Made by a program: the position numbers and the translations under genes
NCBI RefSeq assembly: GCF_003987185.1
Contig: NZ_PIPS01000001.1
Coordinates: forward strand, 1,178,001-1,242,000
Reading direction: 5' to 3'
Length of the DNA: 64,000 nucleotides
From: Idiomarina aquatica
GTDB taxonomy: Bacteria > Pseudomonadota > Gammaproteobacteria > Enterobacterales > Alteromonadaceae
Notes under the pieces: model-generated
Seen by the model: the letters and a program-made list of their open reading frames with translations, nothing else
What the model was told of the DNA's origin: nothing
Databases searched by the model: none
In this document: positions 48,421-49,874 of the stretch, piece by piece
Position numbering within the stretch: the stretch's first letter is position 1
Layout: every line of letters starts with the position of its first letter

Positions 48421-48657
48421 TTACACCTTGATACCACGGCCGCGGAGATCCGCTAATACCGAGTCGATACCATTTTTATCGATGATACGCATACCTTTAG
48501 TAGAAATGCGCAGCTTAACCCAACGCTTCTCGCTTTCTACCCAGAAGCGGTGAGATTGTAAGTTTGGTAAAAAGCGACGCTTAGTCGCATTGCGTGCGTG
48601 CGAGCGGTTGTTACCGACTACCGGACGCTTACCTGTAACTTGGCATACTTGTGACAT
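48421..48657 (-). CDS. rpmB: Ribosomal protein bL28
   Basis: The 78-residue protein starts [20 protein letters not shown] and has [14 protein letters not shown], typical of bL28 of the large ribosomal subunit. The ATG at 48657 is the family start; the frame is open further up. It heads the rpmB-rpmG operon. The ubiquitous order radC-rpmB-rpmG-mutM holds, though with two extra genes before mutM. Confidence 0.98.
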
Positions 48658-48855
48658 GTCTTTACTCCAAAATTGCTGCAAGCTCGCCTGTCGCCCAATT
48701 TGACCTTGCCTAGAAATCCGAGGGCGCATTTTATACAGCAAACAGGCCCGCTAATCAAGCTAAAACGGCGGTTTTTTGATCCTTTCCGATCATTCGCGGC
48801 GAATTCTACGCTAAATCCGCTCAATCTTCCAGCGCTTTCTTTGGTTAGTGAGAAA

Positions 48856-49016
48856 CAAGGTGGTGAAGCAGTAACGCTCTTATCAGCTTGAAGGGGGGCT
48901 GAGCCAGGAACCGCTTCAAGCACGTCCGTGTGGCTTGTGTCCGGGCATCCATGCCCTCCCACATTCCTGCCTCAGCCCCCCTTCAAACTGCTACGCGTTA
49001 CTACTCGACCACCTTG
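48856..49016. repeat. Long imperfect inverted repeat enclosing structured element copy 1
   Basis: CAAGGTGGTGAAGCAGTAACGC at the left (48856-48877) matches in inverse the right end (48995-49016) with three differences. After a short unpaired spacer the arms resume as a perfect 16-bp stem, 48888-48903 with 48971-48986 (TTGAAGGGGGGCTGAG and its complement). The whole could fold into a hairpin of about 160 nt with the element core in the middle. Confidence 0.85.
48893..48981 (+). repeat. Structured 89-nt element, copy 1
   Basis: This 89-nt unit has a G6/C6-ended outer stem, an internal 20-nt block (48919-48938) shared exactly with copy 2, and an inner hairpin GGGCAT-CC-ATGCCC (48943-48956). Aligned without gaps to the reverse complement of copy 2, I count 68 of 89 identical positions; several of the differences keep base pairing. 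Confidence 0.85.
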
Positions 49017-49042
49017 GCTCTAACTGCCCGGAAGCCTAGAGC
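49017..49042. repeat. Small hairpin between the two element copies
   Basis: GCTCTA (49017-49022) pairs with TAGAGC (49037-49042) around a 14-base loop. It fills much of the spacer between the two copies and may be part of the same composite element. Confidence 0.4.
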
Positions 49043-49071
49043 AAGGAATGGAAACATGCGTGTTGGGTTGT

Positions 49072-49160
49072 GGGGGCGCTGCTCGGGAATGTTGGAGGCC
49101 ATGGATGGCCGGAAACAAGCCACACGGACGTGCTCGCAGCGGTTTCTGAGGCGCGCCCCC
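49072..49160 (-). repeat. Structured 89-nt element, copy 2 (inverted)
   Basis: Same length and layout as copy 1 but on the opposite strand. The outer stem is GGGGGCGC/GCGCCCCC and the inner hairpin GGCCAT-CC-ATGGCC. The exact 20-nt block lies at 49115-49134. It starts 40 bases after the radC stop codon. Confidence 0.85.
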
Positions 49161-49199
49161 AAAGTTCAGAACAAAGCACAACCGACCTGCCTGAATCTC

Positions 49200-49874
49200 C
49201 TACAACAGCCCGCGTTCGGCGAACGAGACAGGGTCGCCGCTGCCGATGATAAAGTGATCGAGTAAGGCGACGTCGACGAGGCTGAGGGCTTTTTTCAGGC
49301 GTTCGGTGACGCGTTGGTCGGCTTGGCTGGGTTCGGCGACACCGGAGGGGTGATTGTGGGCAAGGATAACCGCGGCGGCGTTGTGCTGCATGACCATTTT
49401 CAATACTTCCCTTGGGTATACCGGTGCGGCGTTAATGGTGCCGTGAAACATTTCCTCGTAGCGCAGCAGGCGATGTTGGCTGTCCAGTAGCAGGACCACG
49501 AACACCTCGCGTGATTGGTGGCGTAGCTGGGTAGTCAGGTAATCTTTCACCATGGCGGGCTCGGTGAAACCATCGCCACGCTTCAATTGCCATTGGAGAT
49601 AGCGTCTCGATAGCTCTAACACAACTTGCAGCTGATTGACTCTGGCCGGGCCGATGCCGTGATATTTGAGTAATTTCTCCGCCGGCGCGCACAGCAAGGG
49701 TCCGACGCCATCAAAGGTTGCCAATAATTGCCGTGAATAAGACACCACGTCTACCCCTTTTTGTCCGCTACCGAGTAAAATCGCAATCAGTTCAGCATCA
49801 CTCAGTGCCGCCGCTCCCAATTGCTGTAGCTTCTCCCTTGGGCGCTCTGTTTCCGGCCACTCCTTCAATTTCAT
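49200..49874 (-). CDS. radC: RadC family JAB-domain protein
   Basis: The 224-residue protein has an N-terminal helix-hairpin-helix part (LLKYHGIGPARVNQLQVVLEL) and a C-terminal JAB/MPN metal site HNHPSGVAEPSQAD. It was named for DNA repair, but that role is doubtful; the biochemical activity is not firmly known. It diverges from coaBC, as in most gammaproteobacteria. Confidence 0.95.
   Translation of the reverse strand: MKLKEWPETERPREKLQQLGAAALSDAELIAILLGSGQKGVDVVSYSRQLLATFDGVGPLLCAPAEKLLKYHGIGPARVNQLQVVLELSRRYLQWQLKRGDGFTEPAMVKDYLTTQLRHQSREVFVVLLLDSQHRLLRYEEMFHGTINAAPVYPREVLKMVMQHNAAAVILAHNHPSGVAEPSQADQRVTERLKKALSLVDVALLDHFIIGSGDPVSFAERGLL

Follow-up and report, generated by a model that had tools for sequence, protein, structure and literature searches.

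A dispersed hairpin family of Gammaproteobacteria with predicted CsrA-binding loops and a probable kinship to TwoAYGGAY

The intergenic gap between two open reading frames of Idiomarina aquatica, presumed to be radC and rpmB, holds an inverted pair of long hairpins (Table 1) that belongs to a dispersed repeat family, and we consider it probable, at roughly two chances in three, that this family is a high-copy relative of the TwoAYGGAY motif built of predicted CsrA-binding hairpins, the copies being landing sites for CsrA and together a possible sponge. The pair lies in a stretch of 64,000 nucleotides that was analysed as a whole (hereafter the window). On the strand that bears the GGA motifs, the unit consists of a long stem of strongly variable sequence followed by a tip, some 55 nt long, that forms two small hairpins. 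The global regulator CsrA has a few sponge RNAs as its main known restraint; if it binds the element, the repeat family would amount to a large uncounted pool of CsrA sites, and a genome repeat would be linked to a regulatory protein. From the sequence we infer that the element would be transcribed, would bind CsrA and would affect the level of free CsrA. The novelty lies in the copy number, the layout and the reach of the family, the motif itself being already known.

The original prediction, made from the sequence of the window, described two inverted copies of an 89-nt structured element. On recounting, the gapless alignment of 48893-48981 with the reverse complement of 49072-49160 has 68 identities in 89 positions, and an exact 20-nt block is shared (48919-48938 in copy 1; 49115-49134, reverse-complemented, in copy 2). 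The compensated pairs that had been pointed out are also there: 6/84, 7/83, 8/82 and 11/79 of the unit are GC, CG, TA and GC in copy 1 and CG, GC, CG and CG in copy 2, and the swap in the inner hairpin (GGGCATCCATGCCC in one copy, GGCCATCCATGGCC in the other) is present in the sequence. The 89-nt core is therefore real, but as the extent of the unit it is too short, since in copy 1 the hairpin continues into an outer stem (48847-48877 / 48995-49025). In the register i+j-1=89 the outer positions form Watson-Crick pairs in 17 of 19 cases for copy 1 and 14 of 19 for copy 2, and the paired changes are absent in the three alternative registers tried. The segment 48883-48991 folds at -60.6 and -69.5 kcal/mol for its two strands, with z values against shuffles of -6.5 (plus) and -8.7 (minus) and none of 200 shuffles as good; the fold of copy 2 alone is far weaker (z of -2.6 and -2.7, 2 and 1 of 200 shuffles folding as well).

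Table 1. Positions in the window of the inverted element pair, its parts and its two neighbouring genes
Feature	Position	Strand	Basis or remark
Copy 1, whole long hairpin	48847-49025	minus (GGA-bearing RNA)	inverted repeats; covariance model match
Copy 1, outer stem	48847-48877 / 48995-49025		inverted repeat
Copy 1, inner stem	48881-48910 / 48964-48993		inverted repeat; tip in between
Copy 1, 89-nt core	48893-48981	minus	
Copy 1, first tip hairpin loop	48946-48953	minus	CATGGATG (CANGGANG)
Copy 1, second tip hairpin loop	48923-48930	minus	CACGGACG (CANGGANG)
Copy 2, 89-nt core	49072-49160	plus (GGA-bearing RNA)	
Copy 2, first tip hairpin loop	49100-49107	plus	CATGGATG
Copy 2, second tip hairpin loop	49123-49130	plus	CACGGACG
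Insert between radC and rpmB	about 48835-49197	no strand	edges by eye, not base-exact
radC (presumed)	49200-49874	minus	ORF; upstream neighbour of the element pair
rpmB (presumed)	48421-48657	minus	ORF, start set at an internal Met; downstream neighbour

A transcript running on from radC would meet copy 2 first, on its non-GGA strand, before reaching copy 1 on its GGA strand. ORFs of 111 and 114 aa span the element region, and the compensated pair changes together with the variable stems speak against this region coding for protein. A simple consensus scan of this one locus found no sigma-70-type promoter-like site in 48700-49250, and a terminator scan unsuited to such long hairpins gave a single terminator-like site at 48760-48746 on the minus strand, outside the element. 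The plasmid and phage collections had no blastn match to 48880-49170.

A search of the own genome with copy 1 returned nine rows, namely the query itself, copy 2 (E 2.2e-17 in a genome of 2.97 Mb), two self-matches of the palindrome arms and five other places, which include a further inverted pair, at 178485/178662 of contig C3. The resemblance of the two inverted copies is thus neither an accident nor confined to one locus, and the suggestion of a dispersed element is borne out by these and by the copies in relatives. The tip of copy 2 used as query matched 14 of 60 genomes, the own one included. From 90 raw matches in overlapping loci, 63 unique copies were retained, drawn from the genus, the family and a single genome in the order, after dropping duplicates, matches shorter than 45 nt and matches without 110 nt of flank (among those dropped are truncated or fused copies, namely L007, L019 and the second matches in L023 and L037). 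The alignment (A1) holds 62 of these copies on the GGA strand, L006, a degenerate copy of the own genome without the second motif, being left out, and it is the basis of the covariance model R1. A search of the genome and its relatives with such a model had been proposed in the original prediction and gave copies in many genomes. With R1, copy 1 scores 98.7 bits (48886-48989, minus) and copy 2 89.7 bits (49064-49167, plus), both being in the building set of the model; 14 matches were found in the own genome and 8-32 each in 14 of the 19 genus genomes, and no copy was found in the other five (G008, G009, G012, G013 and G018). Of 369 Gammaproteobacteria sampled evenly across the class, 71 match, about a fifth. 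Among 30 genomes picked by hand, most of them for a match in the class sample, 29 match and three have over a hundred copies each (G307 131 of its best 132 candidates, G297 115 and G142 104). It may be noted that the copy counts rest on the best 150 candidates per genome in the genus, the best 132 in the 30 genomes and the best 10 in the class sample. A DNA pattern for the second hairpin found at least 119 stretches, 80 of them listed with names, and the genera among the matches listed include Marinobacter, Microbulbifer, Idiomarina, Rheinheimera, Xanthomonas, Stenotrophomonas, Halopseudomonas and Methylomonas. In a sample of the phylum, 32 of 398 genomes match at E 1e-6 (best nine candidates per genome), and none lies outside the class, all 32 being the own genome or members of the same family, order or class.

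The tip is the constant part of the family. On one strand both tip loops read CANGGANG in all 62 aligned copies, and C, A, G, G, A and G are invariant in either loop. The N positions of loop 2 are free (C 27, T 18 and G 17 at one; T 30, C 28 and A 4 at the other) and those of loop 1 are almost fixed (first T 55, A 5, G 2; second T 60, A 1, G 1), so that a free N in loop 1 is drawn from the wider pattern set. We take the CANGGANG loops to be the recognition motif of CsrA/RsmA, which is a GGA in a hairpin loop within (A/U)CANGGANG(U/A) and for which the SELEX consensus is RUACARGGAUGU; several copies carry GTACAGGGATGT, an exact fit to this consensus. As for the outer A/U and U/A flanks in the window copies, those of loop 2 fit (ACACGGACGT) and those of loop 1, being C...C or C...G, depart from the motif. 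The strict AYGGAY form is found in both window copies (ATGGAT, ACGGAC) and not in all relatives (e.g. AGGGAC). The loop starts are 23 nt apart in both copies (48923/48946 and 49100/49123), a spacing that suits bridging by one CsrA dimer; judged by sequence, the window copies thus have the motif in their loops and two putatively bridgeable sites, as would be expected of a CsrA site. An independent test is offered by the DNA pattern, which spans the second hairpin only and leaves the first hairpin free to lack the motif. Among the matches listed, 130 tips had sufficient sequence upstream; in 102 of these CANGGANG occurs within the 45 nt that precede the pattern, against 2.2% of random 45-nt windows from the same loci, and ANGGA in 114 of 130, against 10.7%; CA(N)GGA occurs there in 118 of the 130 listed tips (a count without control), and the full CANGGANG is missing from the first hairpin in 28 of them. 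An incidental motif would be absent from the first hairpin, and its presence in most tips therefore argues that it is not incidental.

Covariation across the family is very strong. The aligned copies have a covariation score of 0.749, as compared with 0.212 in shuffles and at most 0.230 with the partner slid, which upholds the claim that a fold is under selection; 90.6% of the cells are paired (62.0% in shuffles, 38.9-48.9% with the partner slid), and cells with two-sided changes number 724 against 245. A two-sided change is present in 30 of the 36 pairs, a count which is not decisive since 17 of 500 shuffles also reach it. On comparing hairpins at the same place in the own genome (G000) and in G005 (six comparisons), 29 stem pairs had changed on both sides and were still paired and 4 had changed on both sides and were broken; one-sided changes kept the pairing in 23 cases and broke it in 46, of which 27 fall in the two comparisons with fused copies (L048, L042). 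The best case is L041 against L049, with 13 compensated pairs. In G331 (L300-L313) several copies have closely alike tips and inner stems that are dissimilar yet well paired, for which tip conversion, stem replacement or rapid compensated drift might account. The six copies examined in G307 (L314-L319) have almost identical stems, so stem divergence is not universal.

The strand on which selection acts can be read from the stem mismatches. Under selection at the DNA level, G·T and A·C mismatches should be equally common, as they interconvert on the opposite strand. Two sets of stems were counted, both picked by tip sequence with no part played by stem pairing. In the pattern set, which is from other genera and has usable stems in 101 of the 136 pattern matches among those listed, the GGA strand has 179 G·U against 32 A·C; by copy, 69 have an excess of G·U, 5 an excess of A·C and 27 are ties. 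The 63 copies from the genus, family and order gave 187 G·U against 51 A·C on the GGA strand (51 copies G·U-rich, 3 A·C-rich and 9 ties), and 240 against 117 with another alignment method. Binomial p-values would be too strong here because the copies have common ancestry. With G·U far in excess of A·C on the GGA strand, the RNA of that strand is the form kept, and selection therefore acts on it; of the earlier guesses about the nature of the element, a structured RNA is accordingly the better one. The same counts bear on a functionless palindrome kept perfect by mutation alone, through quasi-palindrome correction or template switching. Such a process might account for stems that are near-perfect despite their variable sequence, and for the G331 copies with alike tips and unlike stems, but we regard it as very improbable, since correction at the DNA level gives no one-strand G·U bias such as that of the pattern set and leaves the constant loops unexplained.

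REP/BIME are short conserved palindromes with GTAG/GGAG and an associated RAYT, and a REP/BIME-like or MITE-like identity was the other guess made from the window. As an explanation of the family, a DNA repeat of REP/BIME type appears unlikely, mobilised by a RAYT (Y1/HUH) transposase which would recognise the hairpin as DNA and have the tip motif as its site. The likeness is one of layout: the copies are multiple, dispersed and palindromic, often form inverted pairs, and when single lie more between convergent than divergent genes. A neighbour within 400 nt was found for 49 of 138 matches, and of 28 such close neighbours 18 are outward-facing (the GGA strands diverge), 4 inward-facing and 6 in the same direction; in an outward pair each strand has one GGA hairpin, behind a complementary one. 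In the own genome, REP-like palindromes (GTAGCTTGCGCC...GGCGCAAG) adjoin the pair L003 as well as the fused copy L007, and the pair L002 is bounded by 25-nt inverted repeats; a six-copy array (L329, see below) alternates with REP-like sequence, and Y1_Tnp is matched in 11 of the 19 genus genomes. These points would favour a RAYT-borne repeat. The pattern of conservation, however, is the opposite of that of REPs, whose stem is conserved: in the element the tip, i.e. the loop region, is constant and the stems differ among copies. The strand-asymmetric tolerance of G·U indicates RNA, and there is no dependence on Y1_Tnp in the genus, which was without match in 7 of the 14 element-bearing genomes (G002, G003, G006, G010, G011, G016 and G017) and matched in 4 of the 5 element-free ones. 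An exact search for four REP-like palindromes found none in the window. The REP/BIME or MITE identity is thus not upheld. The Y1_Tnp distribution leads us to reject a RAYT as the required mover; this rejection does not extend to an occasional carrier.

The orientation survey, made with a simple longest-ORF caller, covered 108 clusters, of which 85 are single matches. Of these, 30 lie between tandem genes, 18 between convergent and 9 between divergent genes, 11 apparently within an ORF and 17 at an edge; the 11 within-ORF cases are perhaps spurious, the DNA being GC-rich, and a single match may have a partner missed by the model. The tandem-gene singles run along the gene direction in 17 cases and against it in 13, with no clear sense preference. 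A bidirectional terminator or 3′-end stabiliser, blocking exonucleases or ending transcripts and with incidental loops, would agree with the very stable fold of copy 1 (energies above) and with the twofold count of convergent over divergent singles. We give it little credence, as no five-T run directly follows either hairpin of the window, the constant CANGGANG loops are unnecessary for a terminator, and 30 of the 57 singles with two called neighbours are flanked by genes of like orientation, the 13 that run against them included.

As to the history of the locus, radC is present with its protein in 19 of 19 genus genomes, and the rpmB protein is found downstream of it at 19 genus loci. The radC-rpmB gap measures 542 bp here and 414 bp in G005; in 17 of the 19 genus genomes the insert is missing and the gap has a length of 180-213 bp. 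From the sizes of the occupied and empty gaps the pair either arrived before the split of G000 and G005 or was lost elsewhere. Seven of the eight loci of the own genome that were compared (L001, L002, L003, L006, L040, L041 and L042, not L007) have a syntenic copy in G005 or G001. Arms of two origins are seen in L042, as compared with the pair L045 at the same place, and in L007, which resembles the pair L003; such mixed-arm copies suggest that copies may be lost by fusion at the tip. At a tRNA-adjacent locus the pair is inverted between G000 (L002) and G005 (L012), with unchanged flanks. A second tip type exists, in which GCGCC...GGCGC encloses the first loop and AAGCCC lies ahead of the second; in L041, L032, L021, L053, L043 and L030 the pair consists of one main-type and one second-type tip, suggesting an old two-part unit.

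If the loops are CsrA sites, the hosts should have the protein. All 19 genus genomes have csrA, and the own genome has three CsrA-family genes (G000:C2:12750, C4:160527 and C2:146025; L320-L322), two of them divergent paralogues; its main CsrA has Leu4 and Arg44, residues of presumed functional importance. In the class sample (369 genomes in the csrA survey and in the element survey, taken as one set), 58 of 59 good genomes with the element have a csrA match, against 222 of 255 good genomes without an element match (Fisher p 0.009, kinship ignored), and in all genomes the counts are 66 of 71 against 247 of 298 (p 0.04, kinship ignored). The association lends weak support; 5 of the 71 element-bearing genomes have no csrA match, one of them (G254) being 98% complete. 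The five element-free genus genomes (listed above) have csrA with 2-3 matches each, so CsrA does not need the element. As genus-mates differ, with many copies in 14 of 19 and none found in 5 of 19, they provide natural controls and the question is directly testable.

The preferred reading, a TwoAYGGAY relative with CsrA-binding hairpins, would work as follows. The long stem, mostly of free sequence, would hold up the two small CANGGANG-loop hairpins at its tip; on read-through from an adjacent gene on the GGA strand the RNA would fold, and one CsrA dimer, to judge from the motif and the spacing, could bind both loops. The element would then be a CsrA landing site within an untranslated tail, and many copies might jointly act as a distributed CsrA sponge or buffer, the outcome being local (protection or decay of the mRNA), global (a sponge) or both. 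A bolder form of this reading, with CsrA decoys that spread through the class, from tens to more than a hundred CsrA sites dispersed over the untranslated regions of a genome, a repeat family that, in place of a single sponge gene, partly sets the level of free CsrA, and inverted pairs that guarantee a GGA hairpin from either strand, is tentative and in our opinion rather doubtful.

The classical sponge RNAs CsrB, CsrC, RsmX, RsmY and RsmZ carry repeated GGA hairpins, and the element is like them in its repeated GGA hairpins (predicted CsrA sites) and in having a six-copy tandem array in one genome; it is unlike them in that a unit has two sites, the loci are many and dispersed where a sponge RNA has a single gene, and the scan gave no promoter. 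The array (G598, L329 888-2252) consists of six tandem copies at a period of 227 bp, with 12 GGA loops, and looks like a CsrB-style multi-site sponge. RsmU of Xanthomonas is an RsmA-binding RNA within a 3′ untranslated region, conserved only in Xanthomonas and with a rho-independent terminator, and RsmA binding persisted when its predicted GGA motifs were altered (PMC7694677, in its available text). Its likeness to the element is by description only, and its confinement to Xanthomonas and its terminator set it apart. The accessible parts of further papers concern CsrA-related RNAs of Alcanivorax, CsrR1 and CsrR2, with no repeat family (PMC9788540), and Csr RNAs of Pseudoalteromonas (PMC9927453, PMC11882849). 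Judged by titles and abstract openings, the openly accessible papers found describe no dispersed repeat with CsrA motifs.

Among the families of Rfam none matches the window at its gathering cut-off. Some miRNA families (MIR5635 at 33.6 bits, mir-3170 at 28.4 and others) appeared far below their cut-offs and were rejected, as probably any long hairpin scores so. TwoAYGGAY (RF01731) matches 48874-49000 on the minus strand at 26.7 bits (E 0.049; cut-off 43) and does not match copy 2. The earlier view that the element falls in no recognised class therefore holds as far as the score goes, which is below the Rfam cut-off, but a relative can be recognised in TwoAYGGAY, which matches on the same strand. 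On alignment to the RF01731 consensus, CAuGGAUG lies opposite the first loop, and the second GGA loop of the model opposite the second. RF01731 was not found at its cut-off in 58 family loci (batches of 20, 20 and 18), nor at E 0.001 in the own genome; at E 0.001 it matches 12 of 60 relatives, 6 of them above the cut-off. Three loci match both models: L059 (RF01731 50.2 bits, R1 49.6 bits), L063 (38.5 and 82.0 bits) and L023 of G038 (RF01731 37.6 bits), the last being in the R1 building set. At E 0.001, R1 found nothing in G045, a genome with five RF01731 matches above the cut-off.

The TwoAYGGAY motif was reportedly introduced by Weinberg and others, and its link to CsrA is said to come from Gardner and Eldai. 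In the available text of the papers, the motif was introduced and listed for human gut, Gammaproteobacteria and Clostridiales (PMC2864571, 2010) and was later proposed to bind CsrA (PMC4333381, 2014). That published prediction, as far as the accessible text states it, would gain many genomes in which it can be tested. The element and TwoAYGGAY are alike in the long imperfect stem, the two-hairpin tip with AYGGAY-type loops and the strand; the element differs in its score below the cut-off, in reaching 131 copies found in one genome (copy numbers of RF01731 being known here for 60 relatives) and in its frequent inverted pairs. We read the element and TwoAYGGAY as two branches of one kind, and file the element beside that family, not as a formal member of it.
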